DNA from: an uncultured Planctomycetaceae bacterium
Lineage (GTDB): Bacteria > Planctomycetota > Planctomycetia > Planctomycetales > Planctomycetaceae
DNA length: 53,594 nucleotides
NCBI GenBank assembly: GCA_937916515.1
Contig: CALFSX010000075.1
Location: 1 to 53,594 of the forward strand
Reading direction: 5' to 3'
Notes under the pieces: generated by a model
What the model saw: the letters and a program-made list of their open reading frames with translations, nothing else
What the model was told of the DNA's origin: nothing
Databases searched by the model: none
Position numbers and translations under genes: made by a program
Part shown: positions 39,037-53,594 of the stretch, piece after piece
Layout: each line of letters begins with the position of its first letter
Position numbering within the stretch: the first letter of the stretch is position 1

Positions 39037-39265
39037 ACGATTTGGGTGAACACCAGAAGCGGGGCTTGCAGGAATGTGCCCACAGCGGGGATTCCAACAG
39101 CTCATGCGAACTCAGGCGGTGATTCCGCCGCGTGGTCTTGTGCATGAAAAGCACGGAAACCAATCGGACTGTGGCGATTTGGCTGTGTTTGAGCTACACT
39201 TACGGTTGCCTGGACGGGCGAGCCACGGCGATTACCGCTCACGAAATATTTCCATCAGCATCAGC

Positions 39266-40690
39266 ATGTCCACAAAAAACCTTTCTCCACGCGAAGTCAT
39301 CGCTTTATGTCGGCAGATGGAGATTCGCGCCATCGATTTGCGATTTGCAGATTTTCGGGGTCATCAGCGGCATTTCACGATTCCGGCAGAGCAGCTGACG
39401 GAAGAAAAATTTGAAGATGGCTTTGGCTTTGATGGATCGTCAATGCCTGGTTGGCAGGCGATTCATGAAAGTGACATGCTGATCGTTCCGGATTCGCTGA
39501 CGGCGTTTGTAGACCCTTTCATGAAGCACACGCTGTCGCTGTTGTGCAACGTGAAGGACCCTGTAACACATCAAAGCTATCCGCGCGATCCTCGCAACAT
39601 CGCTCGCAAAGCCGAAATGTACATGAGATCAACAGGTATTGCCGACGCGGCCACCGTCGGCCCGGATGTTGACTTCTTTGTGTTTGATGGTGTGTCGTTC
39701 GATCAAAATGAACACGAAGGCTACTATCACATCAACAGCAGCGATGCTCAATGGAGCCGCGGTAAAGACGCCGTTCATGGAACAGGTCAGCAGGTTCCTT
39801 ATCGAGGCGGCTATATGATGATGCCTCCGATGGACACGTTTCAGGATCTTCGCACAGACGTAATGCTGGCATTGCAGGACAGCGGTATCGAAGTGGCCAG
39901 CCAGCATCGCGAAGTTGCATCCGCCGGGCAATGCGAGGTTTCTTTAAAACCCGATACGCTGCTGGTAACAAGCGATCGTCTGCTGCGAATGAAGTATGTG
40001 GTACGCAATGTGGCTAGTCGCCATGGAAAAGTGGCCACATTCATGCCCAAGCCGGTTTACAACGATAACGGTTCCGGACTGCATTTGCAGTTGGCACTCT
40101 GGAAAGACAATGCTCCCTTGTTTGCCGGTTCCGGTTATGGCGGCTTAAGCGAAACAGCCATGCACGCGATGGGAGGAATTCTTAAGCACGCTGCTGCATT
40201 GCTGGCGTTTTGCTGTCCAACCACCAACAGCTATAAGCGTCTGATTCCGGGCTTTGATGCTCCTGTCAATCTTTCTTACAGTTATCGAAACCGTTCCGCC
40301 GCCATTCGAATTCCGGCAAATTCCGGAGACGAAACGCGTCGTCGGCTGGAGTTTCGTTGCCCGGATTCGTCTTGCAATCCGTATCTGGCAAATTCAGCCA
40401 TTCTGATGGCGATGCTGGACGGAATTCAGAATCGCATCAGCCCCGGCAAGCCGCTGGACAAAGACCTGTACGACCTGGCTCCAGAAGAGCAGCAAAACGT
40501 CGCTTCCACACCCGCTTGTCTGGAACACGCGTTGAATGCTCTGGAAAAAGACCAGGACTTCCTGCTTCGCGGCGACGTGTTTACCACTGACGTTGTGGAA
40601 AAATGGATTGAGTACAAACGGACGGAAGAAGTGGCTGCAATTCAGCGTCGACCGCATCCGTACGAATTCGCTTTGTACTTTGATTGCTGA
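39266..40690 (+). CDS. glnA: Type I glutamine synthetase (with Glu-to-Asp changes at catalytic positions)
   Basis: From ATG 39266 (MSTKNLSPREVIALC) the protein has 474 residues, normal for GSI; the open frame upstream is not conserved. Clear family motifs are FDGSSMPGW, KPVYNDNGSGLH, CPTTNSYKRL, NRSAAIRIP and KDLYDLAPEE with the Tyr (402) adenylylated in enterobacteria. Glu216, Glu224, His273 and Glu362 of the metal sites are kept. However, the two metal-binding Glu of the usual GPEPEFF are Asp134 and Asp136 here (GPDVDFF), and the flap Glu of GYEAPV is Asp331 (GFDAPV). GS makes glutamine from glutamate, ammonia and ATP. With these changes a related gamma-glutamyl ligase is possible. No nitrogen-regulation gene is nearby. 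Confidence 0.85.
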   Translation: MSTKNLSPREVIALCRQMEIRAIDLRFADFRGHQRHFTIPAEQLTEEKFEDGFGFDGSSMPGWQAIHESDMLIVPDSLTAFVDPFMKHTLSLLCNVKDPVTHQSYPRDPRNIARKAEMYMRSTGIADAATVGPDVDFFVFDGVSFDQNEHEGYYHINSSDAQWSRGKDAVHGTGQQVPYRGGYMMMPPMDTFQDLRTDVMLALQDSGIEVASQHREVASAGQCEVSLKPDTLLVTSDRLLRMKYVVRNVASRHGKVATFMPKPVYNDNGSGLHLQLALWKDNAPLFAGSGYGGLSETAMHAMGGILKHAAALLAFCCPTTNSYKRLIPGFDAPVNLSYSYRNRSAAIRIPANSGDETRRRLEFRCPDSSCNPYLANSAILMAMLDGIQNRISPGKPLDKDLYDLAPEEQQNVASTPACLEHALNALEKDQDFLLRGDVFTTDVVEKWIEYKRTEEVAAIQRRPHPYEFALYFDC

Positions 40691-40713
40691 TTGGCTGATT
40701 GAAAGCTGCTGTT

Positions 40714-41445
40714 ATGCTGAATTCGTCTGTGACGGAATTTTCCGGCTTGAAGTGTCGAGTGATAGACGCACTTCCGACTGGCACCGCACCAGAAATTGTT
40801 GTTGTGTTATGTCACGGCTTTGGCGCTTCGGGCGACGACCTGGCGGCCTTTGGCCCCCATTTGATCGGCAGCAGCGAAGCAATCGCCGCGCGATGCCGAT
40901 TTGTTTTTCCGGAAGCACCGATCGATCTTGGCCCCATGGGAATGCCTGACGGCAAAGCGTGGTGGGCCATTAATATGTCGCGTTTGGCCATGATCAATCA
41001 AACGCAGGAATACGAAAAACTCACCAGCCTGGAACCCGAAGGCATGGTGGAAGCGTCGACTCAACTGCATGAAGCGATTCTTCAGATGCAGGCAAAATTT
41101 GACCTTCCGGCCAGTTCGTTTGTGGTCGGTGGTTTTTCTCAGGGAGCGATGATTGCCACCGATGTGGTGCTGCGACACAAGTTGAAGCCCGCTCAGCTGA
41201 CGCTGTTTTCCGGAACCGTTTTGTGCAGCGAAGACTGGAAGGCCTTCGCCGCCGATCACCCCGGATGCCCGGTGCTGCAAAGCCATGGTCGCCAGGACAT
41301 GGTTCTGCCGTTCACACCGTCAGAATGGCTACGCGACCTGTTGTCCGAAAACGGTTTCGGAGTCTCATTCGTCCCCTTTAACGGCGACCACACCATCCCG
41401 ATGGAAGTGCTGACCAAACTGGTAACGGTGCTGGAAGAACTCTGA
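40714..41445 (+). CDS. Phospholipase/carboxylesterase-family alpha/beta hydrolase
   Basis: The gene starts 23 nt after the glutamine synthetase stop, so the two may be co-transcribed. I used ATG 40714 (MLNSSVTEFSG), five codons inside the open frame. The 243-residue protein has the compact serine-esterase fold: VVLCHGFGASGDD at ~30, nucleophile Ser142 (GGFSQGAM), Asp195 (SHGRQDMVLPF) and His226 (NGDHTIP). This is the carboxylesterase/acyl-protein-thioesterase-like family. No signal peptide is present, so it should be cytoplasmic. The natural substrate is unknown. Confidence 0.88.
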   Translation: MLNSSVTEFSGLKCRVIDALPTGTAPEIVVVLCHGFGASGDDLAAFGPHLIGSSEAIAARCRFVFPEAPIDLGPMGMPDGKAWWAINMSRLAMINQTQEYEKLTSLEPEGMVEASTQLHEAILQMQAKFDLPASSFVVGGFSQGAMIATDVVLRHKLKPAQLTLFSGTVLCSEDWKAFAADHPGCPVLQSHGRQDMVLPFTPSEWLRDLLSENGFGVSFVPFNGDHTIPMEVLTKLVTVLEEL

Positions 41446-41683
41446 ACGGATGCGAAGATATCCTCAGACAGCCAACTCAAATGTGGCGGGCTTCATGTGT
41501 TTCTTGCTGATTAAGGCGAATGGTGGAGAACGGGATGTCAGAATCCCCACAGAAAGTCCGTGAGCAAGTGTGGCCAATCAGCAACAAATCCGGCACAGTT
41601 GAATCTGCGGACCGGGAAGTCAACAATACGCGTTGATACAGGGATTATCCCGTCGACGTTACTGAGTTACAGGAAAAACTTTC

Positions 41684-42295
41684 ATGCGTTTCACTTCATT
41701 TGCCGCAGCAATTCTTCCAATTACTTTAGTGGTCAGCGCTGTTGTTGCGGACGAAGCAACAAAGGCAGAACCAGCCAAAGCAATAGAAGCCGTCAAGGTC
41801 GAAACCCGCGAGGTCAAACTTAAGGACATGGTTCTTAACATTCCAACCTCATGGGAACAGCAGGAAAATTCCAGCACCATGAGACTGGCCACATATCACG
41901 TACCAGTCGCCGAAGGTGATTCTGAACCGGGCGAATTGACCGTATTTAACTTCGGCAGCGGAGGTGGCAGTGCGGGCGACAACATTGATCGTTGGATTAA
42001 ACAGTTTTCCGGTGAAGGCCGCACCGCCAGGGTCACAAAAGGCAAGGCTGGTGACAACGAGTACTTTTTTGCCGACATTGCGGGCAGCTACAACAAGCCA
42101 GTTGGCCCTCCTGTGCTGCGAAAGACAGAGCTGGCAGAAAACTACCGCATGCTGGGCGTTATTTTAGTGCTTGAAGGCAAAGGAACATACTTTCTAAAGC
42201 TGGCTGGTCCCGATGCGACAATTAAGGCTCAGGCCAACTCATTGCGAGCGTCCTTTGGCGGCGACGCAGCGACGGAAAAGGAATTTGGCATTTAG
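41684..42295 (+). CDS. Small secreted protein of unknown function
   Basis: The N-terminus (MRFTSFAAAILPITLVVSAVVADE) is a signal peptide with probable cleavage after VVA. The mature ~180 residues contain VKLKDMVLNIPTSWEQQ, a polar middle, ELTVFNFGSGGGSAGDNIDRW and FLKLAGPDATIKAQANSLRASF, a pattern of a small alpha-beta domain. I do not recognise a described function, but the composition suggests a periplasmic or secreted planctomycete family. It appears monocistronic, with palindromic copy C starting 33 nt after its stop. Confidence 0.75.
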   Translation: MRFTSFAAAILPITLVVSAVVADEATKAEPAKAIEAVKVETREVKLKDMVLNIPTSWEQQENSSTMRLATYHVPVAEGDSEPGELTVFNFGSGGGSAGDNIDRWIKQFSGEGRTARVTKGKAGDNEYFFADIAGSYNKPVGPPVLRKTELAENYRMLGVILVLEGKGTYFLKLAGPDATIKAQANSLRASFGGDAATEKEFGI

Positions 42296-42327
42296 TCGAT
42301 TGTGAGTCTGGCTGGACAGCGCCAAGC

Positions 42328-42408
42328 CTCAATCACTGGCAGGGCGTTAGCTCCGGTTTTCTTTCCGTGATCCGCACAAACCGCGGCTAACGCCCTGCGG
42401 TTACTGAG
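42328..42408. repeat. Dispersed palindromic element, copy C
   Basis: Arms CTCAATCACTGGCAGGGCGT (42328) and the matching right arm ending ACTGAG (42408) pair with a few mismatches. The loop TTCTTTCCGTGATCCGCAC closely resembles the loop of copy A. Confidence 0.88.
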
Positions 42409-42578
42409 ACCTGACTGGAATCCAAACTAAATCAAGAGGCCGGTGAATCAGCGGCGTGCATGTCTCCGCTGAATTCAACTCAACTGCAGTTTGCCTGTTG
42501 ATTCTCGCCTCGGAAGTCACGAACCGCGAAAGGTTCCTGGAATCGTGTTGTTGTTTGCATTTTCTTGTTGGTACAACG

Positions 42579-43406
42579 ATGTTGCTGGCTCGGATTAGTT
42601 TCGTTCCTCACATGGACCATGAAGAGGCCGAACTGGTCACGGTTGCTGAAGCCTATCTGGCGTCGTTACTGAAAAACGGCCAGATCTGCGGAGAACACGT
42701 AACCGGCTGGACCGACTGCATTATGCACGCCTACGTTCGAATTCCCCATCGCGATATCCTGCTCCCAAAGTATCATTCCGTTTGGGGGCAGCAGGAACTG
42801 GCAGCCGTGGAACGCCAGTTTGGGGCGAAGCCGGAATGGAAGATTCTGGACGACGACACGTCGGCTCGGGTTCCCACGCTAAAGTCCGCTGCTTCACTTT
42901 ACCTGTTCACGCACGGGCTAACCAACGCCAGCGCCGTAATGCATGGTTCACGCGGAACTTCCATCCCTTTACCGCTGCTGCCCATCAGCGACCTGTTGCG
43001 AGAAGAATTGTTTCTTTGGCAGCAAAGCTATCTTAATCACGATCGCATCTGGCTGGATGGCGGACCACTTGAAATTGCCGCCTATAAAGAACTGGCTGAA
43101 CCTGATAGCCAGCTGCTGTCCGCAGGTCGTGACCTGTGCGCTCGCATTGAAGAAGCGACAGGCAAACCCACCTATCTGTATCTGCTAAGACACTGGGGAA
43201 TCGCGGCCGAAGAGGAAACTCGACCGTGTCCGAAGTGCGGTCAGGAGTGGCGAGACAGTTCCAGCCCAATGCCGTCCAAACGCCCCTTTCGCAAGTTCCA
43301 CTACCGCTGCGATCCGTGCAGATTGGTTTCTCACAGAGCCGTCGCTTTCGGCGACGCTGAACTAGCAAAAATTGGCGCCTTTCCCAAGCCAGACGCTGCG
43401 GAATAG
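42579..43406 (+). CDS. Zn-ribbon protein, DUF2310-like
   Basis: I chose ATG 42579 (MLLARISFVPHMDHEEAELV); the 41 codons before it are Cys-rich without domain character. The 275-residue protein has a C-terminal zinc ribbon, CPKCGQEW followed by YRCDPCRLVSH, and a preceding GKPTYLYLLRHWG segment. Together these resemble DUF2310, described as Zn-ribbon-containing and possibly nucleic-acid-binding. No enzyme motif is visible. It is probably cytoplasmic. Function is unknown, and the family call is by pattern only. Confidence 0.6.
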   Translation: MLLARISFVPHMDHEEAELVTVAEAYLASLLKNGQICGEHVTGWTDCIMHAYVRIPHRDILLPKYHSVWGQQELAAVERQFGAKPEWKILDDDTSARVPTLKSAASLYLFTHGLTNASAVMHGSRGTSIPLPLLPISDLLREELFLWQQSYLNHDRIWLDGGPLEIAAYKELAEPDSQLLSAGRDLCARIEEATGKPTYLYLLRHWGIAAEEETRPCPKCGQEWRDSSSPMPSKRPFRKFHYRCDPCRLVSHRAVAFGDAELAKIGAFPKPDAAE

Positions 43407-43743
43407 ATTCCGAACGCTTTTGCTTTAAAGACAACAGGCAATTCGCAAGTCAGCGTTACCGCAACTCTAACGGGTTTCATTCACGAACCGATTTCAGATC
43501 CGTTCGATCAGCCGCTAAGGAACAGTCCCGAACTTTTACCCCGTTTTCTGTTGCACTGCGTCAGCACAATGACGTCAGGTGTGTCGTGACCACGAATCAT
43601 GCAACACGCGTGACACGCTTCTGGTTGCGGAATTTGCGTTGCTAAGAAGTCAAACCGCGGCTAACGCCGTGCGGCTGATTTGATCTGCTGCTTCCTGTCC
43701 CTGCAGCCGCCAATTGAACGACTGCGCCCTGTGCAAAGACGCA
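43407..43743. other. Convergent intergenic region
   Basis: About 340 bp separate two convergent genes. It contains the half copy of the palindromic family at 43652-43680. No gene or terminator is clear. Confidence 0.5.
43652..43680. repeat. Dispersed palindromic element, half copy E
   Basis: AAACCGCGGCTAACGCCGTG and the following CGGCTGATT match only the right arm of the palindromic family, with one change (GCCGTG instead of GCCCTG). No left arm is present, so this looks like a decayed or incomplete copy. Confidence 0.8.
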
Positions 43744-45939
43744 CTAAAACGTTTGCCGCAAATATCGCACAAATCGAGCAATCAAAGACACTCGCTGCGT
43801 GCTGATCCGCAAGTGGCCGACGGAATACAGCAACAGTGGTTGTTGCTTCGTGTTTGTGAGTTCTGCCGTTACAAAGTAGTTCGGGCTAAGCGGCGAAATT
43901 CCCACTTCTGTTGGACGTCCGCTGATAAGTCCGGCTGCGTTCAGCGCCAATGGCAGCATGTCAGCTTCAAGCTGCCCCACTTCGCGAATTTCAGCGGTCA
44001 TCACCGGTCCACTGATGCGAGGTGAAAATTCGGCCGTCTGCGATTTCCGAATGTACTCAACGTTGTCCTCGCCCACACATGCAACAAGTTCAACATCGGA
44101 GTTCACACCAACATGTCCCAGCATTGTTCCGCGTTCAATCCACGCTCCAGAATTTTCCGGGGCCATCGCGGAGCCAAACCAAAGCTGTGGTAAGTCTGGA
44201 TGATGTTGGTGAGCCGTCTCTATTGGCGGCAGGAATATTCCGTTATGTTTGCTGCGAATCGTCAGCTTTTCCATCTGGCGTTCAAAGTCGGCAACTCGCA
44301 ACATTGCAGCATTTGATGCTTCCTGAATTGCGGGCAGCGATTCAGAACCAGCCGTTATTGGATTTCTGCGTAGTGATTCCAGTTGAGACGTAAGTTCATC
44401 GCTTCGACCTTGTAGTCGCTGCAGGTTTTTCTGTAACTCGAAGTTTTCCAGCACCGCCAGCACGTCGCCGATTTGCACCTGCTGTCCATAGGTCGCAACG
44501 GGCCGAATGCGTCCGGAAAGCTCAGCAAACACGGGCGGCGCCTTCGATTGAACATAGGCTGGCACCACAACTGACTGCGGCAACGGCCACAACAACGCGA
44601 TCGCCCCAAGTGCAGCAAATATCGCAGTTCTAAAACGCACACGCATTTGCGGTTCGTCGCTTGTTGCAAGTTCCGCTTTCAGCATCATGGCGAATCGCCC
44701 AAGCGGAATCGCCACGCTTCCCGTCAGCAAGGTTAGACTCAGTATTGAACCGACAAATTCCACGTGCCATTGTTTTGAGACTTCCTGGACAAGCTTCAAA
44801 ATGGCAAACGTCAGCAGCATTCGGTACGCCAAAGCCAGCAGGCCATATATGAGTAACGTCGTTCTGCGATGTTCTGATTCCATCAATGCCTGTCGCCGGC
44901 CGGTCATCAGCCGAACAAACCAGCTTTGCACAAATGCCGCTGCACGTGAACTCAGGTTCGGAATTCCCAGCCAGTCTGTCAACAGGAAATAACCGTCAAA
45001 CCGTAGCAATGGGTTGCCGTTGAACAGCAGAGTGTTTAACGAACACAGCAACATTGTGTTCAACAGCAGCGAACGAGTCACTCCCGGTTCACAAAACCAC
45101 CACAGAATGGTACAAGCCACCGCTATCGAAAGTTCCACCAGAATGCCGCTAAATGTTATCAGCATTCTTTCGCGTATGGGCAGTGTCCACGCATCGCTGA
45201 CGTTGGTGTACAGTACGGGAGTCATCACCAGCAGCATCACACCGCATTCGTTGCATTCCGCCTTGAAGTACCTTGCACAAAAAGCATGGCCGGCTTCGTG
45301 CAGCACTTTTACGGCCACAAACACCAGCAGCATTATTGCTATGTTTGGGGCTCCCAGAAATTCCTGAATCGTTGGCAAGGCTTGCTGCAGTTCTGAGAAC
45401 CGCAACACGACGATCAGCAAAGCGGAGAACGCCACAAAGGCCATAGCCTTCCAGAATTGTGGGCGAAACGCAAACTGAACGTGCGGCAAGACATTGTCCA
45501 GAATATGCGTCGGATTCAGCAGCGGTACCTGCAGTCGGAGAATCTGAAATAACGGCTTCAGGTATCGCAGCGGGCCATCCGCTTCACTACCGGAACGCAG
45601 ACGCAACGAATCACCAGCGACGGTTTGTCGAATCAACTGATGTCCGGCCAGATGGCGGATAAAGTCTGCCAGATCTTCCGGACCTACGCCACGATCAGGG
45701 AATCGTTGCCGAAGCACAGCCAGCATTTTCGGAAAGGGCGTCTTTCCGTCCAGTAAATTCAGAATGGCGTATTCGGCGTCGTCCAGCAAAGCGTAGTTCA
45801 GCGTCAACGGATCTTTCACCACCCAACCACCGGCGTCGTGGACAGTTGCCTGCAGGTCAAATCGTTTGATCCAGGGAATCTGCAAGTTCACATCTCGCGT
45901 CGTTAATGAACACCTGACAAACCACACGCAAAAACTCAT
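43744..45939 (-). CDS. PqqD-like / M50 site-2-protease / HlyD membrane protein
   Basis: The 731-residue protein has three parts. Residues ~20-105 look like a PqqD-type winged-helix domain (GGWVVKDPLTLNYALLDDAE, YAILNLLDGKTPF), the fold used to bind peptide substrates in peptide-modification systems. Residues ~160-460 are an M50 membrane metalloprotease core, with the zinc motif HEAGH at 214-218 and the second metal segment NPLLRFDGY with Asp315. About eight helices surround it. Residues ~480-730 are a HlyD/biotinyl-lipoyl adaptor (AYVQSKAPPVFAELSGRIRP, GDVLAVLENFELQ) with a coiled coil. It lies downstream of two other adaptor genes on the same strand, and palindrome D sits in the gap. It probably forms part of an exporter, perhaps trimming or passing peptides. 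Confidence 0.85.
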   Translation of the reverse strand: MSFCVWFVRCSLTTRDVNLQIPWIKRFDLQATVHDAGGWVVKDPLTLNYALLDDAEYAILNLLDGKTPFPKMLAVLRQRFPDRGVGPEDLADFIRHLAGHQLIRQTVAGDSLRLRSGSEADGPLRYLKPLFQILRLQVPLLNPTHILDNVLPHVQFAFRPQFWKAMAFVAFSALLIVVLRFSELQQALPTIQEFLGAPNIAIMLLVFVAVKVLHEAGHAFCARYFKAECNECGVMLLVMTPVLYTNVSDAWTLPIRERMLITFSGILVELSIAVACTILWWFCEPGVTRSLLLNTMLLCSLNTLLFNGNPLLRFDGYFLLTDWLGIPNLSSRAAAFVQSWFVRLMTGRRQALMESEHRRTTLLIYGLLALAYRMLLTFAILKLVQEVSKQWHVEFVGSILSLTLLTGSVAIPLGRFAMMLKAELATSDEPQMRVRFRTAIFAALGAIALLWPLPQSVVVPAYVQSKAPPVFAELSGRIRPVATYGQQVQIGDVLAVLENFELQKNLQRLQGRSDELTSQLESLRRNPITAGSESLPAIQEASNAAMLRVADFERQMEKLTIRSKHNGIFLPPIETAHQHHPDLPQLWFGSAMAPENSGAWIERGTMLGHVGVNSDVELVACVGEDNVEYIRKSQTAEFSPRISGPVMTAEIREVGQLEADMLPLALNAAGLISGRPTEVGISPLSPNYFVTAELTNTKQQPLLLYSVGHLRISTQRVSLIARFVRYLRQTF

Positions 45940-45998
45940 TATCGCCCGCCGTACGAAACGACTGTACGACGGTCAAACCCTACCTGGACAGAGCCATG

Positions 45999-46078
45999 TC
46001 TCAATCAGCCGCAGGGCGTTAGCCCCGGTTTGTGCGAATCGTGGTAAAAACCGCGGCTAACGCCCTGCGGCTGATTGA
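45999..46078. repeat. Dispersed palindromic element, copy D
   Basis: Arms CTCAATCAGCCGCAGGGCGT and its complement (ending TGATTGAG) are almost perfect. The loop GTGCGAATCGTGGTAAAA resembles the reverse complement of the loops in copies A and C, so this copy is in the opposite orientation. It lies between two co-directional exporter genes. Confidence 0.92.
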
Positions 46079-46128
46079 GGTAACAGAAATACTGATGTTT
46101 CATTTAAGCTGCCGCCGTTCAACTGTGC

Positions 46129-47271
46129 CTATTTTTGAATCTCCAATGACGCGATCATGCCTGGCAGCACCTGCAATTCTGAGTTATCGAATTCCGCCCA
46201 GAATCGGACCTGCTGATTGACCGGGTCGATTTCCTGGCTCACAAAAGTCACTTTCCCCAGCAGTGCAATATCGGTTCCACCGGAACTCACGACGATCCGA
46301 ACCCCTTTACCGACCAATGCCACCGATCCATCACTTGCCGAAAGAAACCCTTCGGCTCGCAGACGCTTCAGGTCGATGATGCGAGCCACTGGAGCTCCTG
46401 GTACCACCCACTCGCCTGCCTGCTTCTCAATCTTCGCGATGACTCCGTCAAAGGGAGCTCTGATGTTCCGCTGTTCCAGTTGCAGCTGAGCCATCTCGAC
46501 AGCGTTAACCTGCAGTTGGTTGTTAACACCCGCAATCAGCTGATTCTTCTGTTCCTGCTGCAGCACAGTGTTGTAGCGTGCAATCTCTTCAAGCTTCTGA
46601 TTCAACGACGCCTTTTCCGCCGCAGGCTTCATTCGCTGCACGGCCAGAGCTTCCTGAGCCTGTTTGATTTCCAGCTGGCCTTTGGCGACAGATGTCTTTA
46701 ACCGATCAATCTGGGCTTCTGAAATGCTGCCTTTGAAAGAACTGCGAGCCGCGACGGCTCGTTCCAGTTCGTGCTTGCGAAGTTCGACTTCTGCGGTGGC
46801 AATTCCAACGGCAGAATCACTCAGCGCTTCGGCTTCAGCAATCTTCAGAGCGACTTCTTTTACTGTTTTTGCAGATTGCGCTTCTCGCAGTTGAGCTTTT
46901 GCAGAAAGCACGGGCAATTCGTCTTCGGCTTTCAAACTGGCGATTTGCAGATTTAACTTGCTGGCCTGCAGTTGCAGGAGCTGCTCTTCGTTTTCCAGTA
47001 CGGCAATTACATCATTCGTTGAAACGGCTTGCCCCTCAATGACTTCAATCGCAAACAGTGTTCCGGCATCTCGAGCGGGCAATTCGGCTTCTCTGGCAAG
47101 GCTGATGGTCACCTGCTGCACATGAATACTGCTATCCTGAGCGACCAATGTTTGCACCGGATTAAGCAGCAGCATGATCATCGTTGACAGCGCTGCACCG
47201 AGGCCCATTTTACTGCGGCAAACAACACGGCTTGGTACGTCTTCTTGTCTGGCACGGGAAGCGGATTCCAC
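46129..47271 (-). CDS. HlyD-type periplasmic adaptor protein
   Basis: The 380-residue protein starts with a short hydrophilic stretch and then a signal or anchor helix (MGLGAALSTMIMLLLNPVQTLVAQ, ~22-45). A split biotinyl-lipoyl domain (TLFAIEVIEGQAVSTNDVIA and NIRAPFDGVIAKIEKQAGEW) surrounds a long helical hairpin (~100-250) rich in Glu, Ala and Leu. A beta-barrel part follows (AEGFLSASDGSVALVGKGVRI). This is the membrane-fusion-protein plan that links an inner-membrane pump to a TolC channel. It ends ~30 nt before the next upstream gene of the cluster begins on the same strand. An alternative start is Met22. Confidence 0.85.
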   Translation of the reverse strand: MESASRARQEDVPSRVVCRSKMGLGAALSTMIMLLLNPVQTLVAQDSSIHVQQVTISLAREAELPARDAGTLFAIEVIEGQAVSTNDVIAVLENEEQLLQLQASKLNLQIASLKAEDELPVLSAKAQLREAQSAKTVKEVALKIAEAEALSDSAVGIATAEVELRKHELERAVAARSSFKGSISEAQIDRLKTSVAKGQLEIKQAQEALAVQRMKPAAEKASLNQKLEEIARYNTVLQQEQKNQLIAGVNNQLQVNAVEMAQLQLEQRNIRAPFDGVIAKIEKQAGEWVVPGAPVARIIDLKRLRAEGFLSASDGSVALVGKGVRIVVSSGGTDIALLGKVTFVSQEIDPVNQQVRFWAEFDNSELQVLPGMIASLEIQK

Positions 47272-47302
47272 GGCGATTCTCCTTCAGGACACAACAAAAC
47301 AA

Positions 47303-49198
47303 TCACAACCAGGCAAAACGAACCTGCTGCCAGAACTCAATAACTTCACGAAACCAAACAAAGCCCAGACTTCGACGTCCACAGGAAATGCGTGCAAACA
47401 CCGAAGTCCCCGGACGAAGCAATTGATCTGTGGTCGACTGCAATTCTGCAGTTCCATGACAAACCAGTTGACCATCCACCAACTGAACGGCGTTGTCGAC
47501 TGTGGTTAGATTCGTCGCCCAATCCTGATCGGGAGCCGCCTTAATACGATAGCGGATTGCTGGATGTTCTTCGCCCGAATCTATTGCATCGTTAACGTAG
47601 ACCACCAGATGATCTGGGATTTTCAGATCCAGTCGCCATGTGTCGTCGATTGGAATCACTTCAAATAGCAGTTGCCCTCGCTGTACGGGGCGCCCTGTGA
47701 GCTCCTGCTGAGGATTCCGCAGGAAAACGATTCCGTCAAATGGAGCAGTTATCTGCAAGGCGGCTGACTGTAGTTCAATCAGTTGTAGTTGCTTTTGCAG
47801 ATTCTCCAGCTGCTTCATAGCCAACTGTTCTTCCCCACTGGATTTTGCATCACCGCCCGTCAAACGGAGTGCTCGGACGGATGCCAGTCGAGCGGTGGTT
47901 GTTTCAATATCGCCTAAAACCTGCTGACGTTCAAGATCCATGTCTGGGTTGGACATGGTCAACAGCGGCTGTCCCCTGGTCACCGTAGCTTCATTAACAA
48001 ACAGCACATCTTCAACGGTTCCGTTTTCTGCGGCAAACACTTTTCGCTGATTGCTGGATTCAATCCGGCCATTGACTTCGACTTCAAAATCGGCTGGCCA
48101 GAATGACAGAAATGCAAATATTGCGGCCGCAATCAAGACTCGCATCTTCAACCGCCCTGATGAAACACCAGGCAGCCACGATTGCTCGCGTTGGCATGTC
48201 GCTGCGAACACTGCGGCAGACGCCGCAACAATTTGTTGAACCAAGGTTTCGTCGGGGGGATCTTCGTGATTGAATGTCTCAATCATCAATTGATGCAACT
48301 CAGCGGGAACAGCGATATCCGCTCGAATGTCGGTGTCGTTCCCATGTTGATGCAGAGGAATGATACGACACTGAGTGACTCCGGATTGCATCAGCGTCGC
48401 TGCAGCCGCCACGACATCGGCACTTTTGCCGGAAACATCATCGCTGGAAATATTGCCGAGGTTGACCCAGCTTTCAAACGCTGAATCGCCACCAGACGAG
48501 TTCACCAGCGTTTCAGCAGCTTGAACGGAGGCCGACTGAGCGTTCGGTTGCTTCACACCGGTCACTGCGGCAACTCGGGCCCGCCCGTTGGCAGGTTGAC
48601 ACACCGTTAGCCGAACGTTTCCCAGGACGGCGGCGCCGTCTTGAGCCAGCACGTTGGCGGCGTCGGATGACGACTTGCACAGATGCAACGTATTCACGAG
48701 GCTCAAAATTGATGAACTCTTGTCGATTCGCGTTTCGTATTGCGAAAGCAACTGGCGGCTGACAAAGCTTCCGATAACGGTGGCAATAGCCTGAAGCCCC
48801 TCGGCAACACTTTGTTCGGGAGCGATCAATCTGCCACAGCGAGCCACAAGTACCAAAGTAAGGTTCTTTGCCAGAGCATGTACGACGGTTATGCGATGAA
48901 CTACCGCCTTTGCTTCACCTGCGGAGTCCTCAGTATTGAACTGAGTTCCGCGTTCAATGGCAGCCAGCAGGCTTTGGTGTTCCGCGGCGGCAATGGGAAA
49001 ACTCAGCCCCTCCGCAGAAAACCGTTCTGAAGACTCGGGACGCACCAGCAGAACGTCGAGATCAGAAGTTTCGGCGAGATGCGCCGAAGCAGAGTTAGCA
49101 AGCTGCTGAATGTTGGAATACAAGGCGGCATCCAGCGCCGCTTCTCGCTCAATCGCGTCCAGTCGCGTTTCGAACTGATTAAGCCAGGCGTCAGACAT
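47303..49198 (-). CDS. Membrane HlyD-type adaptor with cytoplasmic GAF-like region
   Basis: I chose ATG 49198 (MSDAWLNQFETRLDAIE); TTG 49204 and GTG 49201 precede it in frame. The 631-residue protein has a long cytoplasmic N-terminal half (~1-350). Residues ~150-340 have a GAF-like pattern (SSILSLVNTLHLCKSSSDAANVLAQD), though I cannot fix the domain firmly. One membrane helix (MRVLIAAAIFAFLSFWPADF, ~353-372) is followed by a HlyD adaptor: VNGRIESSNQRKVFAAENG, LQITAPFDGIVFLRNPQQEL and a coiled coil between. The join of a sensory-type cytoplasmic part to an export adaptor suggests ligand-controlled export. It is the first gene of the minus-strand cluster. Confidence 0.8.
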   Translation of the reverse strand: MSDAWLNQFETRLDAIEREAALDAALYSNIQQLANSASAHLAETSDLDVLLVRPESSERFSAEGLSFPIAAAEHQSLLAAIERGTQFNTEDSAGEAKAVVHRITVVHALAKNLTLVLVARCGRLIAPEQSVAEGLQAIATVIGSFVSRQLLSQYETRIDKSSSILSLVNTLHLCKSSSDAANVLAQDGAAVLGNVRLTVCQPANGRARVAAVTGVKQPNAQSASVQAAETLVNSSGGDSAFESWVNLGNISSDDVSGKSADVVAAAATLMQSGVTQCRIIPLHQHGNDTDIRADIAVPAELHQLMIETFNHEDPPDETLVQQIVAASAAVFAATCQREQSWLPGVSSGRLKMRVLIAAAIFAFLSFWPADFEVEVNGRIESSNQRKVFAAENGTVEDVLFVNEATVTRGQPLLTMSNPDMDLERQQVLGDIETTTARLASVRALRLTGGDAKSSGEEQLAMKQLENLQKQLQLIELQSAALQITAPFDGIVFLRNPQQELTGRPVQRGQLLFEVIPIDDTWRLDLKIPDHLVVYVNDAIDSGEEHPAIRYRIKAAPDQDWATNLTTVDNAVQLVDGQLVCHGTAELQSTTDQLLRPGTSVFARISCGRRSLGFVWFREVIEFWQQVRFAWL

Positions 49199-49366
49199 CA
49201 CCAAGTAATTTCACTTCGAGTTCCGTGGGAAACGTATTCCGAATCAATTCTTCGGCAGCGACAGTCGGCATCAAGCCTAACCCACCTGCATGCGCAAGCG
49301 TTGCGTGTGAAGATGCAGTTCTCGCAGCACCCACACAGAACGACATGTTCTGCCCAAACGCCTATT

Positions 49367-49381
49367 ACTTATCGGATAAGT
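49367..49381. promoter_or_regulatory. Perfect dyad, possible operator
   Basis: ACTTATC-G-GATAAGT is a perfect 7-1-7 dyad in the divergent region of the export cluster, 170 nt upstream of the first adaptor gene. Its symmetry and A/T-rich flanks suit a dimeric repressor site. No known consensus fits. Confidence 0.4.
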
Positions 49382-49452
49382 TTAACACCCTGACCTTGAG
49401 GTTTAGCAGGTTGCGGCTGTAACGGCTGTATTCAGCAGGCCCAAAATTCACA

Positions 49453-49662
49453 TCAGGAAGAATAGGGGGATTTCATGTTCTGCAAGCAGGCTTCGCTGAT
49501 AACTCCGCCCTTACTGACAGCAATTGCGACTATGAACAATTCGGAACGGTCATCTATGCCGACATCAACGCATAGCACTGTAATGTTTTCGCGCGGAACA
49601 CGATGTTTCCCGCATACGCAACTTTGCCATGCGTAGCCTGGCTGTACGGAAATAGCCCCCAT
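49453..49662 (-). CDS. Possible small protein (69 residues)
   Basis: This short frame starts at ATG 49662 right after GAGGTGAT (minus strand of 49664-49671), a good Shine-Dalgarno sequence but only ~2-3 nt from the ATG, which is close. The protein (MGAISVQPGYAWQSC at its start, then a CVCGK pair and a hydrophobic ELFIVAIAVS segment) matches nothing I know. It sits ~250 nt upstream of the adaptor cluster and reads in the same direction. It could be a real small gene, even a substrate of the exporter, or chance. Confidence 0.25.
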   Translation of the reverse strand: MGAISVQPGYAWQSCVCGKHRVPRENITVLCVDVGIDDRSELFIVAIAVSKGGVISEACLQNMKSPYSS

Positions 49663-49714
49663 TATCACCTCGTCTCACACCAAGAATGCTGCATCCTGCC
49701 ACGCTTCGTCGCGT

Positions 49715-51706
49715 TTGGCTGACGCTTGCGTCGCGTGTGGTCGAGTTCAGTGTCTGCTTGCGTTTGCCATCGCACTGTCGGTGATGGCTGGCTGCCGATC
49801 GCCGAATGCCTGGCGAGAAACGATCGCGAATGACACAACAGCGGTCGACACGATCACTCAAAAGGTCGAACGCCCCGTCACAGAGATTCATCCGGCAGCA
49901 TGGTCTCAGGCTCCGGTTACGGTTCGACACCGTGAAGATCTGGCAACGATTCAATATCGAGACATGTCTCTGGACGAAATTCTGCAGATTGCACTGCAGA
50001 ATTCAGAAATGCTGCGAGAACTGGGTGGCACTGTACTGACTAACCCGGCCAGCATTCATTCACGGTTCACCGGCGGACTGGCCGTCACTGATCCGCGCTT
50101 CAGTCCGGAAGCTGCGTTGAGTGCTTTCGATGCGCAACTGCGAGGCACCGCTTACTTCAATAAGAACGATCAACTCTATAACAACCCGTTCTTTGCTGGT
50201 GGTACCAATGCATTCCAGCAGGACCTGCACGAATACAGTCTGGAACTTTCGAAGTATACAGCCACGGGTTCCAGAGTCGCGTTGCGATCGTCATCGATCT
50301 TCAACGGCAACAATGCTCCAGGTAACATCTTCACCAGTGCGTGGGATACTTTGCTGGAAGGCGAAATTCGTCAGCCGTTGATGCAGGGAGCGGGCGTTCA
50401 GTTTAACCGAATTGCCGGACCTGGAAGCTCGGTCGGCGTCTATAACGGCGTGCTGCTGGCGAAAGTCAATTCGGATATGAGCCAGACGGACTTCGAAGTG
50501 GCGGTTCGCGACTACGTTAATAATGTTACCAACGCGTATTGGGATCTGTATTACGCCTATCGCGACCTTGACGCTCGCAGCCAGGCCATGAAACGATCTC
50601 TGGAAGCGTGGAATCGCATTAAGGCTCGGCAGGAAAGCGACCTGGAATCAGGCGCGGCGGAAGCTTTGGCCCGTGAACAGTACTATCGCTTCAAATCAGA
50701 AGTTGACGAAGCGTTGTCTGGAAAGATCACTCTGGGAACCCGCACCGGCAACGGCAGCACCGGCGGAACACTGGAAGGTGCTGGCGGAGTTCAAACAGCA
50801 GAACGTCGGTTGCGTCTGATTACTGGGATGACAATCACAGACGGTGAGATCATTCGTCCCTGCGATGAACCAACTGAAGCCGATATCGCCTTCGATTGGA
50901 ACATCATTCAGCATGATGCTTTGCTAATGCGTCCTGAACTGCGAAAACAGCAGATGGCAGTTCGCAAGCGTGAAATGGAAATTCTGGCGGCTCGCAACTT
51001 CCTGAATCCTCGTCTGGACGCTGTTGGTCGATACCGCTTTCGCGGATTCGGAGACGACCTGCTTAGCAACGGAGCCAACACCAGCGGACCTGCATCGGCA
51101 GTGCGCAACATGATGGGCGGCGATCAGCAGGAATGGTTCCTGGGCCTGGAATACGAAGTGCCACTGGGCTATCGAAAGGCCAATCTGGCCGTTCGCAACG
51201 CTGAGTTTCTGTTGTCCAGAGAACGAGTGATCTTTCGCGAGCAGCAAAGAGAAGTCGTCCACAATCTGAGTAACGCAGTGACGGATGCCGCCAGAGCCTT
51301 CGAAGCCTGCCGTAATAATATGAATCGGCTGATTGCAGCTCGAGAAGTGTTGACGGCTTACGAAACTCAAGACGAAAACGACATGGATATCGACGTTGAC
51401 CATCTGTTGGATGCTCAACGAAAGCTTGTTGAAGCTGAACTTCGTTACTTCAGATCGCGTACCGAATACGCTCTGGCACTCAAGAATGTGCATCTGGAAA
51501 AGGGCTCGCTTCTGCAGTATCACAACCTGCATGTCTTTGACCGTCAAACCATGCAGACTCACGGGTATGAAGGATCGAACACCGCGACAGTGGATGCAGA
51601 TGCCGTGATGGCAGTTCCAGACGACTCAGCCGAAGCCGGTGTCCATGAGCTTACCACTCCGCAGGGAGCCGCAAACGCCCAACAGGCTTCTGCGACCGGC
51701 GTATAG
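49715..51706 (+). CDS. TolC-like outer membrane efflux lipoprotein
   Basis: The protein has ~663 residues and starts with a lipoprotein signal (LLAFAIALSVMAGC, lipobox MAGC). Two outer-membrane-efflux-protein repeats follow, with the usual long helices: SLDEILQIALQNSEMLRELGG, FEVAVRDYVNNVTNAYWDLYYAYRDLDARS, then LRKQQMAVRKREMEILAARNFLNPRLDAVG and RRLVEAELRYFRSRTEYALALKN-like coils near the C-terminus. Beta segments for the barrel lie around residues 140-240. It should form the outer-membrane channel for the divergent adaptor cluster. The start is TTG 49715, without a clear ribosome binding site. The frame is open upstream to 49637 but has no better start. An ATG at 49686 is in another frame. 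Confidence 0.85.
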   Translation: MADACVACGRVQCLLAFAIALSVMAGCRSPNAWRETIANDTTAVDTITQKVERPVTEIHPAAWSQAPVTVRHREDLATIQYRDMSLDEILQIALQNSEMLRELGGTVLTNPASIHSRFTGGLAVTDPRFSPEAALSAFDAQLRGTAYFNKNDQLYNNPFFAGGTNAFQQDLHEYSLELSKYTATGSRVALRSSSIFNGNNAPGNIFTSAWDTLLEGEIRQPLMQGAGVQFNRIAGPGSSVGVYNGVLLAKVNSDMSQTDFEVAVRDYVNNVTNAYWDLYYAYRDLDARSQAMKRSLEAWNRIKARQESDLESGAAEALAREQYYRFKSEVDEALSGKITLGTRTGNGSTGGTLEGAGGVQTAERRLRLITGMTITDGEIIRPCDEPTEADIAFDWNIIQHDALLMRPELRKQQMAVRKREMEILAARNFLNPRLDAVGRYRFRGFGDDLLSNGANTSGPASAVRNMMGGDQQEWFLGLEYEVPLGYRKANLAVRNAEFLLSRERVIFREQQREVVHNLSNAVTDAARAFEACRNNMNRLIAAREVLTAYETQDENDMDIDVDHLLDAQRKLVEAELRYFRSRTEYALALKNVHLEKGSLLQYHNLHVFDRQTMQTHGYEGSNTATVDADAVMAVPDDSAEAGVHELTTPQGAANAQQASATGV

Positions 51707-51809
51707 TTCTGCTTTTATTGGCAACGGCGTGTTGTTGCAGTGGTTGTGAGCTGAGTGCGGAAATAGACTCTCAGTTCCGCACTGGTTATCAACATCGCTG
51801 GATTGCCAT

Positions 51810-52181
51810 ATGACGCCGAACAACATCAGTCCCATCGCTTCAACGCCAGCAACGCCGTATTACTCCGTGATCTTCACATCCATCCGTGCAGCTGGTGACG
51901 ACGCAAACTACTCCGCAATGGCCGATTGCATGCTGCTGATGGCGGCGGAGCAAGACGGATTTCTGGGAGCTGAAAGCGTCAGAGATTCGTGTGGTGTGGG
52001 AATCACTGTTTCGTATTGGCGGGACCTGGAATCGATTGAACGCTGGCATGGTGTCGAGGAGCATCGGCAGGCCCAATCGCTCGGCCGCTTGCGATGGTAC
52101 GACTGCTTCTCTGTACGAATCTGCAAGGTAGAACGAGACTACAACTTTTGCCGTCCCGCTGATCGCTCCGCCGACTCTTGA
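51810..52181 (+). CDS. Antibiotic biosynthesis monooxygenase-like protein
   Basis: The 123-residue protein has the small dimeric alpha-beta barrel pattern of ABM proteins: YYSVIFTSIRAAGDDANY, MAAEQDGFLGAESVRDS, GITVSYWRDLESIERWHGV and the aromatic WYDCFSVRICKVER. Members include haem-degrading and quinone-forming oxygenases and proteins of no known function. It follows the TolC-like gene by 103 nt on the same strand, but no functional link is evident. It is cytoplasmic, with no signal peptide. Confidence 0.8.
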   Translation: MTPNNISPIASTPATPYYSVIFTSIRAAGDDANYSAMADCMLLMAAEQDGFLGAESVRDSCGVGITVSYWRDLESIERWHGVEEHRQAQSLGRLRWYDCFSVRICKVERDYNFCRPADRSADS

Positions 52182-52614
52182 AGCTCTGACTGAACGCGTT
52201 TGCCCCCACACGGGGTAGCGACCAGGCTTTGGCAGCATTGCAGCCGTTTCGCTTGTTGCCGTGTCTGTTGCGGATAAATACCGCGCTTTGCTGCCCACGC
52301 TGGTTCCGTTGTTTTCGCAGCTTGGTTTTCGTTCCGCAGCAAGTTTCGGCCGGCAAATCGGCAATCAACGACGGACGGACGTACGGAATTCGTTTCGGAA
52401 ACGTTTCCCCACTACGGACTGTAGACAAGCCTTGCCACTGCTATTAAGCTGAGACTCCCCTTCGGCGGTTCCCCTTCAGGTATTCAGGACAGACCAGCGT
52501 TGTTGCGTTTACGGAATTGGCCCGGATTGCTGTCGGCCATCTTCGCCAACAAGTTGCAGCAATCTGGCCGCAGCTTAGCCGTTGTTGAATTCACTTAACT
52601 CAGGAGTTCCCATC
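52182..52614. other. Intergenic region, nothing identified
   Basis: About 430 bp without a supported gene. A ribosome binding site (AGGAG, 52602-52606) belongs to the next gene. Confidence 0.4.
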
Positions 52615-53594
52615 ATGAAAAAGCTCTCTGGATTGTTCGCGTTCACCCTGTTTACCGCAAGCAGTGTCTTGCTGAGTTCTGTCGGCGTTGCCGACGAACC
52701 ATCAGTGGCAGCCACTGCACCGTCAGCAGCCACCGTGTATTCTAAAGTGACACGCAAGGACGCGGAAGAATCGCTGAATGTGCCATGTCCGGAAATCGGA
52801 ATCCACAGAGACGCTTCTTTGGGCAGCGTGCTGCAAATGCTGCACGAACACATGTTTGCTGAAACTGGAATTCCTGTTGTGTTTGTTGTTGACCAGGTGG
52901 AATTGGATTTGGAGGCCATTGCTTCGCTTGATGAGGTTCTGCTACCTGAGCTGACTCTACATGCAGGAACTCACTCATGCAAAGACGTGCTTGACCTTTT
53001 AATGAAGGCAACTGTTGATCCTGGATTGGCCTACATTCCGGCGGACGGTCACATTTTGATTACGACTAAGACAAAAGCTGATGAGAGTTTAGAAACGCGG
53101 ATCTATGACGTCACCGCTTTTCTGCCAGCATTAGTGGTCGACAAACATACTGAACGGCCCAGTCGCAAAAAGAAGGGCGGCAAGAAGTCAGGGCGAAAAG
53201 CTGCAGAAGCTAAAAATGCTGCGATCACCACTCAATTCGGAAGCGCTGGCGGTGGAATGGGCGGGCTTGGTTCCGGCGTCGCTCAGGGCGCGATCAAACA
53301 GCAGGCTGAATCCGAAAACCAGCTAAGTGAACAGATCATTTCACTGATGCAACTAATTTCCGAGCAAACCGAACCTTCAGCGAAATGGATGGAAACCCAC
53401 GGAGAAGGCGGCACGATGTCAACCTATGGTCAGTACTTAGCCATTCGGCAAACTTATGAAATTCATCAACACATAGAATCGCTTCTGGCACAGCTGCAAA
53501 AGGCAATCAACACCGGCGGTCCACTGCGGTTTCCCACGCCCGACGCAAGTCAACAGATGCACGGCTTCGGGACCCCCGGATACGGTGGTTTGGG
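52615..53594 (+). CDS. Secreted protein with STN/secretin-like N-terminal domain (partial, cut by window end)
   Basis: The frame starts at ATG 52615 after AGGAG and stays open to the last base, so at least 326 residues are encoded and the end lies outside. I checked the frame codon by codon and found no stop. A signal peptide (MKKLSGLFAFTLFTASSVLL, cleavage near GVADE) is present. Residues ~60-160 resemble the short N-terminal domain of secretins: SLGSVLQMLHEHMFAETGIP, VVFVVDQVELD, TLHAGTHSCKDVLDLLMKAT, YIPADGHILITT and RIYDVTAFLP. A Lys/Gly-rich stretch (~residues 181-205) and a helical region follow. It may belong to a secretion or pilus assembly, or be a separate planctomycete envelope protein. 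Confidence 0.8.
   Translation, partial: MKKLSGLFAFTLFTASSVLLSSVGVADEPSVAATAPSAATVYSKVTRKDAEESLNVPCPEIGIHRDASLGSVLQMLHEHMFAETGIPVVFVVDQVELDLEAIASLDEVLLPELTLHAGTHSCKDVLDLLMKATVDPGLAYIPADGHILITTKTKADESLETRIYDVTAFLPALVVDKHTERPSRKKKGGKKSGRKAAEAKNAAITTQFGSAGGGMGGLGSGVAQGAIKQQAESENQLSEQIISLMQLISEQTEPSAKWMETHGEGGTMSTYGQYLAIRQTYEIHQHIESLLAQLQKAINTGGPLRFPTPDASQQMHGFGTPGYGGL

Follow-up and report, generated by a model that had tools for sequence, protein, structure and literature searches.

How can a gene cluster that encodes three adaptors and an outer-membrane channel, but no pump, move anything across a cell envelope, and what would it move? The question is raised by a 53,594-nucleotide contig (CALFSX010000075.1, assembly GCA_937916515.1; this whole stretch is referred to as the window) from an uncultured Planctomycetaceae bacterium. 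At 43744-51706, three proteins with HlyD parts, one of them a PqqD-M50-HlyD fusion, are encoded beside a TolC-family channel. No ATP-binding cassette (ABC), resistance-nodulation-division (RND) or major facilitator superfamily (MFS) gene adjoins them, which confirmed the pump-less export cluster described in an initial annotation. The cluster is probably a trans-envelope exporter whose cargo is giant surface proteins with a LEPR-XLL motif at the N-terminus. Gene content, conservation, predicted folds, catalytic residues, operon linkage in Proteobacteria and co-occurrence in Planctomycetota were established. The features of the cluster were as follows (aa, amino acids; RRE, recognition element of ribosomally synthesized and post-translationally modified peptides, RiPPs):

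43744..45939, minus strand: fusion of a PqqD-like domain, an M50 intramembrane metalloprotease and a HlyD adaptor, 731 aa
45595..45882, minus strand: PqqD/RRE-like winged-helix domain at the N-terminus of the M50 protein, residues 20-115, predicted cytosolic
45286..45300, minus strand: zinc motif HEAGH in the M50 core, residues 214-218
44992..45015, minus strand: NPLLRFDG motif (residues 309-316), in which D315 is the third zinc ligand
43747..44586, minus strand: C-terminal, periplasmic HlyD/MacA-like adaptor part of the M50 protein, residues 452-731, with a helical hairpin at 500-559
46129..47271, minus strand: periplasmic HlyD adaptor, 380 aa, with a hydrophobic stretch close to the N-terminus
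47303..49204, minus strand: tandem-GAF protein with one transmembrane segment and a HlyD adaptor (GAF-HlyD), 633 aa
48170..49192, minus strand: predicted cytosolic region with the tandem GAF domains, residues 5-345
49715..51706, plus strand: TolC-family outer-membrane channel, divergent from the GAF-HlyD gene, a possible lipoprotein judging from its sequence

The M50 fusion protein in a conserved module

The membrane core of the M50 protein contained both hallmarks of M50 site-2 proteases, HExxH and NPx4DG. H214, E215 and H218 were invariant in all 39 aligned M50 proteins, as were N309, P310, D315 and G316; the 11 aligned proteobacterial proteins all kept the HExxH residues together with D315 and P310, but N309 and G316 were not kept in every one. 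The Pfam score was 19, below the cut-off of 27.2, and the best-scoring M50 models were those of peptide-maturation proteases (daptide, LiaK). The daptide intramembrane protease model NF041824 gave 147 bits over residues 48-416, short of its cut-off of 300. As in daptide-type proteases and YydH/LiaK, one model spanned the PqqD-like and M50 parts; the window protein differed from both in its extra HlyD part, and no daptide genes were seen near it. The predicted fold of the core matched SpoIVFB:pro-sigmaK and RseP, whose catalytic motifs it also shares, although the window protein, unlike those site-2 proteases, additionally carries an adaptor part and a domain resembling leader binders. The predicted fold of the N-terminal domain resembled PqqD/RRE-like leader binders of RiPPs. 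Because the first ~17 residues were poorly modelled and lay outside the matches to relatives, the true start of the protein may be further downstream than annotated. The M50 protein is predicted to combine three parts: a putative leader-binding fold, an intramembrane protease whose catalytic residues are intact, and a MacA-like adaptor.

Conservation was followed in a family sample of 150 genomes and a phylum sample of 196 Planctomycetota genomes. The M50 query matched 145 of the 150 family genomes and the GAF-HlyD query 143. Two of the five genomes with no M50 match (G065 and G069) were incomplete and had GAF-HlyD matches, and in the other three the absence was confirmed by profile. Whether the genes stay together in relatives had been posed as a check, and they did co-occur. 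The fetched loci held 60 M50 genes, of which 47 had HlyD, 38 GAF-HlyD and 22 a TolC recognised by a narrow model within 9 kb; this set was non-random (8 loci reached via SecA, 2 included because SecA was near and 10 from SecA-null genomes). In 74 further non-duplicate named loci the counts were 53 for GAF-HlyD, 52 for HlyD and 6 for TolC. The window's TolC was 72-75% identical to TolC proteins adjoining module genes in three other genomes (G132, G042 and G005). A scan of a contig collection yielded no match with a single-protein query and gave matches with an alignment query. These data support a conserved export module without an ABC, RND or MFS pump, in which the M50 protein is the sole polytopic membrane component.

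TolC and adaptors are often encoded away from their pump, and the adaptors could accordingly serve an ordinary tripartite efflux pump encoded elsewhere. In G004, a single-contig genome without a short SecA, M50-HlyD does stand next to an RND pump of the AcrB type and that pump's adaptor (L113:3642-8317). We consider this explanation highly improbable, since the constant membrane partner was M50 and not a pump, and SecA was the only recurrent ATPase recognised near the module. By Pfam, the ten open reading frames (ORFs) of 39074-53592 contained no ABC exporter and no RND or MFS pump, and a crude test, not covering MFS, flagged no ABC signature in planctomycete loci. PHROGs matches were confined to two families without assigned function.

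Giant LEPR-XLL proteins as probable cargo

Plasmid-borne operons pointed to what the module might export. The M50 query matched 71 plasmid records, by the names shown mostly of Proteobacteria with a few others such as Streptomyces. Among the 25 loci listed, 14 were picked for annotation and variety (H1, H3, H5, H8-H16, H23 and H24), and in 10 of these the module was immediately preceded by a same-strand gene or open frame exceeding 2000 codons, never separated from it by more than one small gene:

Azospirillum TSA2s: giant upstream gene of 13.0 kb
Cupriavidus metallidurans: upstream open frame of at least 2075 codons
Niveispirillum: upstream DUF4347 gene of 21.6 kb
Thalassospira: upstream gene of 12.1 kb annotated "LEPR-XLL domain-containing"
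Sinorhizobium chiapasense: upstream open frame of at least 2656 codons
Pseudosulfitobacter: upstream gene of 38.8 kb annotated "LEPR-XLL domain-containing"
Kosakonia: upstream gene of 7.0 kb, in the order giant Ig-like gene-TolC-HlyD-HlyD-M50
Azospirillum brasilense: upstream gene of 10.2 kb, preceded by an overlapping DUF4347 gene
Variovorax: upstream tandem-95 repeat gene of 48.7 kb
Rhodobacteraceae M382: upstream open frame of at least 4238 codons

Two of three records reached via SecA had the same arrangement, Mesorhizobium (31.6 kb) and Pontibrevibacter (LEPR-XLL, 31.8 kb); the third, Rhizobium leguminosarum TP16, did not fit, with a longer frame of 844 aa and no module gene. For nine giant genes, two of which were reached via SecA, a start was annotated, and seven of the nine carried [LIM]E[PA]R-x-[LMV][LF]-[SD], one of them scored by eye (LEPRFLLS, LEPRMMFD, LEPRMLFD, LEARYMFD, IEPRILLS, LEPRLLLS and MEPRVLLS). 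In three alphaproteobacterial operons, those of Thalassospira (L319, 12615-12911), Mesorhizobium (L338, 6500-6805) and Pontibrevibacter (L339, 7662-7943), the gene of a small DUF3467 protein separates the giant LEPR-XLL/Ig-like gene from that of the first adaptor; this protein is possibly a cargo chaperone. The M50 query also matched plasmid records of Escherichia (17) and Citrobacter (8); Kosakonia was the one enterobacterial locus read.

In Planctomycetota, several long genes near the clusters shared an LExRxLLSA motif ~25-80 residues from the start, degenerate (LEELLMLSA) in three related loci. It corresponds to PF07595 "Planc_extracel" and to LEPR-XLL NF012209, with the consensus LExRxLLS/D-A; the strict LEPR pattern had no match in planctomycete loci because the motif there is LExR. 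A motif model was built from 15 segments, its rows supplied by 13 of the 150 family and 4 of the 196 phylum genomes. At E <= 0.02, the motif was found in 32 of the 196 Planctomycetota genomes, comprising 29 of the 46 with M50-HlyD vs 3 of the 150 without it (~4 expected by chance), and two of those last three matches came from frames just 130 and 40 aa long. At E <= 0.005 the counts were 26/46 vs 0/150, and they were 22/42 vs 0/150 when the four training genomes were removed. Outside the window's own class, which leaves all 150 negatives in place, the motif occurred in 15/31 genomes with M50-HlyD vs 3/150 without, a fairer comparison because every own-class genome sampled has M50. Within the family, the motif was present in 125 of the 145 genomes with M50 and in none of the five without (two of the five incomplete).

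Adjacency was seen in individual cases. A 2986-aa motif protein adjoins M50 in Rhodopirellula baltica (L272), motif frames of 4158+ and 2896+ codons adjoin M50 in G251 and G148, and a motif gene lies near paralogous M50 genes in the window's genus and in its own genome (L315, L087). The candidate cargo in the window's organism would comprise three motif proteins:

L311:1675-15825 (contig C51): 4717 aa, PATR and DUF5649 repeats
L312:1830-4295 (contig C265): 822 aa, DUF4347 and LamG, NF012209 at 16.3 bits, just below the cut-off of 17
L087:2238-4307 (contig C9): 690 aa, close to the M50 paralogue on C9

The motif-bearing N-termini lacked a Sec-like hydrophobic core. The best 12-residue hydrophobicity mean had a median of 0.66 in 13 motif N-termini vs 2.24 in 35 HlyD and 2.33 in 19 TolC proteins, and ranged from 0.48 to 1.27 in eight proteobacterial motif N-termini. 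These values bear on the possibility that M50 is a regulatory or quality-control protease acting on an envelope complex, as RseP and SpoIVFB do, with GAF as the sensor and SecYEG and SecA as the transport route. The intact catalytic site, the predicted fold and the tandem GAF partner would suit such a role. In Pfam scans, in which conserved sigma/anti-sigma neighbours were not searched for systematically, a sigma-54 activator appeared near one M50 gene (L092). We regard this as very unlikely, as the motif N-termini are not Sec-like and HlyD parts on three proteins together with TolC indicate a conduit.

In T. immobilis, the motif was reported in 52 genes, including those of 8 of the 10 longest proteins; 20 of the proteins were detected, 8 in the sodium dodecyl sulfate (SDS) fraction only. 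The text of that motif paper does not mention HlyD, TolC, SecA or M50, and no exporter for LEPR-XLL proteins was recognisable from titles and abstracts in the open-licence PMC literature.

Several observations weigh against an exporter of LEPR-XLL proteins. Four of the 14 plasmid loci did not fit (H3, H10, H11 and H13): Azospirillum B510 has a lone M50; Phyllobacterium has a 1413-aa HrpK-domain gene without the motif, with a type I ABC exporter pair ~5 kb off; Magnetospirillum has a 493-aa repeat gene instead of a giant; and A. ramasamyi has no annotated gene upstream. The A. brasilense giant itself lacks the motif, with LEPRFMFD on the DUF4347 gene overlapping its start, and the Azospirillum TSA2s giant lacks it at the annotated start; the starts of three open frames (Cupriavidus, Sinorhizobium and M382) were unread and stand outside the motif count. 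The co-occurrence counts ignore phylogeny, with M50 in all own-class genomes sampled, and 17 of the 46 M50-bearing phylum genomes had no motif match. Motif adjacency was weak in Planctomycetota, at 8 of 62 M50/SecA loci vs 1 of 40 random loci (p 0.07) and 7/74 vs 1/40 in a second locus set (p 0.16). A looser pattern gave 17/78 vs 5/40 raw and 12 vs 1 after by-eye sorting (p 0.03), an enrichment that is partly post hoc because the pattern was loosened after the sequences had been seen. A Poisson figure for motifs near M50, GAF or SecA genes (8 vs 1.9) came from a hand count and a rough expectation and was not relied on. No motif gene adjoins the window's cluster or its genus orthologues, and for this reason we only infer that the window's own copy serves LEPR-XLL cargo.

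The cargo could instead be a small peptide, a RiPP or a lipid, with the LEPR-XLL giants sharing only lineages with the module and leaving by another route. The lack of a motif gene beside the window's cluster would fit, as would the resemblance of the N-terminal domain to RiPP leader binders, the peptide-maturation proteases among the best M50 models, and loci with a lone M50 or non-LEPR neighbours. Such a cargo nevertheless appears unlikely: the giant gene stood first in the operon in 10 of the 14 proteobacterial loci, the motif was absent at E <= 0.005 from all 150 genomes without M50-HlyD, and no RiPP modifying enzyme was present among the ten ORFs scanned, a scan in which short precursor ORFs were not searched for. 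The short precursor peptide envisaged initially thus gives way to giant LEPR-XLL proteins as the probable cargo, on account of the proteobacterial operons and the co-occurrence.

Short SecA and a proposed route of export

A mechanism for such loci, of which the initial annotation knew none, had been proposed. In the main text of Kamneva, Poudel and Ward (2015; PMC4452313), M50, HlyD and GAF-HlyD genes were reported to adjoin a shortened SecA, for which a role as ATPase motor was proposed with M50 as the pore, the function of the locus being called unknown. Those loci, described from Planctomycetes and Proteobacteria, likewise include no ABC transporter, and an OEP sometimes adjoins. The combination that defines them, an M50 protein with a HlyD domain together with HlyD and GAF-HlyD, is present in the window. 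The window's locus encodes no SecA_DEAD protein without SecA_SW, and we therefore filed it as a SecA-less variant of the 2015 locus, differing from it in the lack of SecA both at the locus and across its tree branch. Neither "PF07595" nor "Studholme" occurs in the main text of that paper; the LEPR-XLL cargo proposed here, the leader-binding fold and the SecA-free genomes are new beyond it.

In a quick M50 tree, a SecA neighbour was found in none of the 12 rows of the window's branch (support 100) and in none of 18 rows at a wider cut (support 93). The earlier picture of a cluster without a motor gene is qualified by part of the family, where a short SecA adjoined 4 of 40 M50 genes picked by M50 alone, 13 of the non-random 60 and 8 of the further 74. 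Nor did a pump gene always accompany these genes, SecA often being absent, even from whole genomes. Three short SecA genes lie elsewhere in the window's genome, and one of them adjoins a paralogous cluster; on contig C58, a SecA-like ATPase of 689 aa with no SecA_SW match directly precedes HlyD, GAF-HlyD and M50. The window genome and the seven other genus genomes in the sample each yielded one or more matches to the short SecA at E <= 1e-100 (frame lengths were seen for part of them).

Across the family, matches at this threshold were found in 130 of the 150 genomes. The remaining 20 comprised 7 with fragments or a stop-bearing frame and 13 with canonical SecA only, the latter called SecA-null by manual reading (fragments were scored as present, the truncated frame of G107 was taken as canonical, and G123 is 75% complete). 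M50-HlyD was kept in 10 of the 13 SecA-null genomes, including the single-contig genomes G004, G033 and G040, and also G007, whose match is in two pieces. A dedicated short SecA is therefore not obligatory for the module. An apparent tracking of short SecA by PF07595 (Pfam model, E <= 0.04, hand count of 1/13 SecA-null genomes vs 103/137 others) was overturned by the better motif model, which found the motif in 9 of the 10 SecA-null genomes with M50 (6 of 7 minus three training genomes) and in none of the three without M50.

Eleven of 20 short-SecA loci, picked for long contigs, adjoined module genes, and in three close relatives the genes for TolC, SecA, HlyD, GAF-HlyD and M50 followed one another, a giant gene facing away from TolC. 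Many other short SecA genes were solitary, with no module gene near (L121, L132, L134, L138-L140, L142-L144 and L146), and motif genes adjoined those in L143 and L146. Among the fitting proteobacterial loci, a short SecA was seen within the operons of Pseudosulfitobacter, M382, S. chiapasense, Mesorhizobium and Pontibrevibacter and not in the others. Two SecA-bearing alphaproteobacterial operons had an extra gene of the same size between M50 and SecA (L318:17152-17973 and L326:12152, 273 aa), annotated as SapC in L318 only.

From these elements we infer how recognition, cleavage, the pore and the energy supply might work. The M50 protein would recognise the motif, which does not resemble a Sec signal, through its PqqD/RRE-like domain on the cytosolic side. 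The M50 intramembrane core would serve as the inner-membrane entry point and, given that its catalytic residues are intact, might clip an N-terminal leader at the start of export. Structure prediction suggests that the M50 protein, the GAF protein and the soluble adaptor could build a periplasmic tube from their HlyD parts, which would dock on TolC. The tandem GAF domains would gate or regulate the conduit. Energy might come from the shortened SecA and from folding of the cargo outside the cell. The shortened SecA, within the operon in some lineages, would act in trans elsewhere, including in the window's organism, or perhaps be replaced by canonical SecA; where it is absent, canonical SecA or cargo folding may supply the energy.

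Known systems and neighbouring genes

Type I secretion (HlyB-HlyD-TolC) likewise relies on a HlyD adaptor and a TolC channel and handles large, repeat-rich cargo. Its signal is C-terminal, in contrast to the N-terminal motif found here, and the window has an M50 protein in the inner membrane in place of an ABC exporter. Unlike MacAB-TolC and EmrAB-TolC, the window encodes no MacB or EmrB. It is quite possible, and tentatively suggested, that the cluster represents a distinct secretion class, in which a fusion of leader-binding domain, intramembrane protease and adaptor replaces the ABC pump, reads an N-terminal LEPR-XLL tag and exports proteins of up to ~16,000 residues via TolC, in the window's branch without a dedicated motor in the locus. 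If true, this would extend the secretion machines by a class that lacks an ABC pump, explain how planctomycetes and many Proteobacteria put their largest proteins outside the cell, and connect the subject of PMC8567305 with the orphan export locus of Kamneva 2015. The proposal is open to direct test by single-gene deletion in a tractable organism.

The surroundings of the module varied among relatives. In three genomes of the window's genus (L075, L076 and L077), the gene divergent from GAF-HlyD was not TolC; in L075 (15927-17972) it encodes an M13-type peptidase, and L076 and L077 encode an equally long protein there. Paralogous M50 genes in the window's genome lie on contigs C9, C58, C207 and C201/C338; the short contigs C201 and C338 of G000 (L090 and L091) carry a seemingly identical paralogous cluster and are probably an assembly duplicate. 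Very large protein-kinase genes, two of them with WD40 repeats, were found near M50-HlyD clusters in three genomes (L108:3956-9463, L111:3400-8862 and L092:2563-7434).

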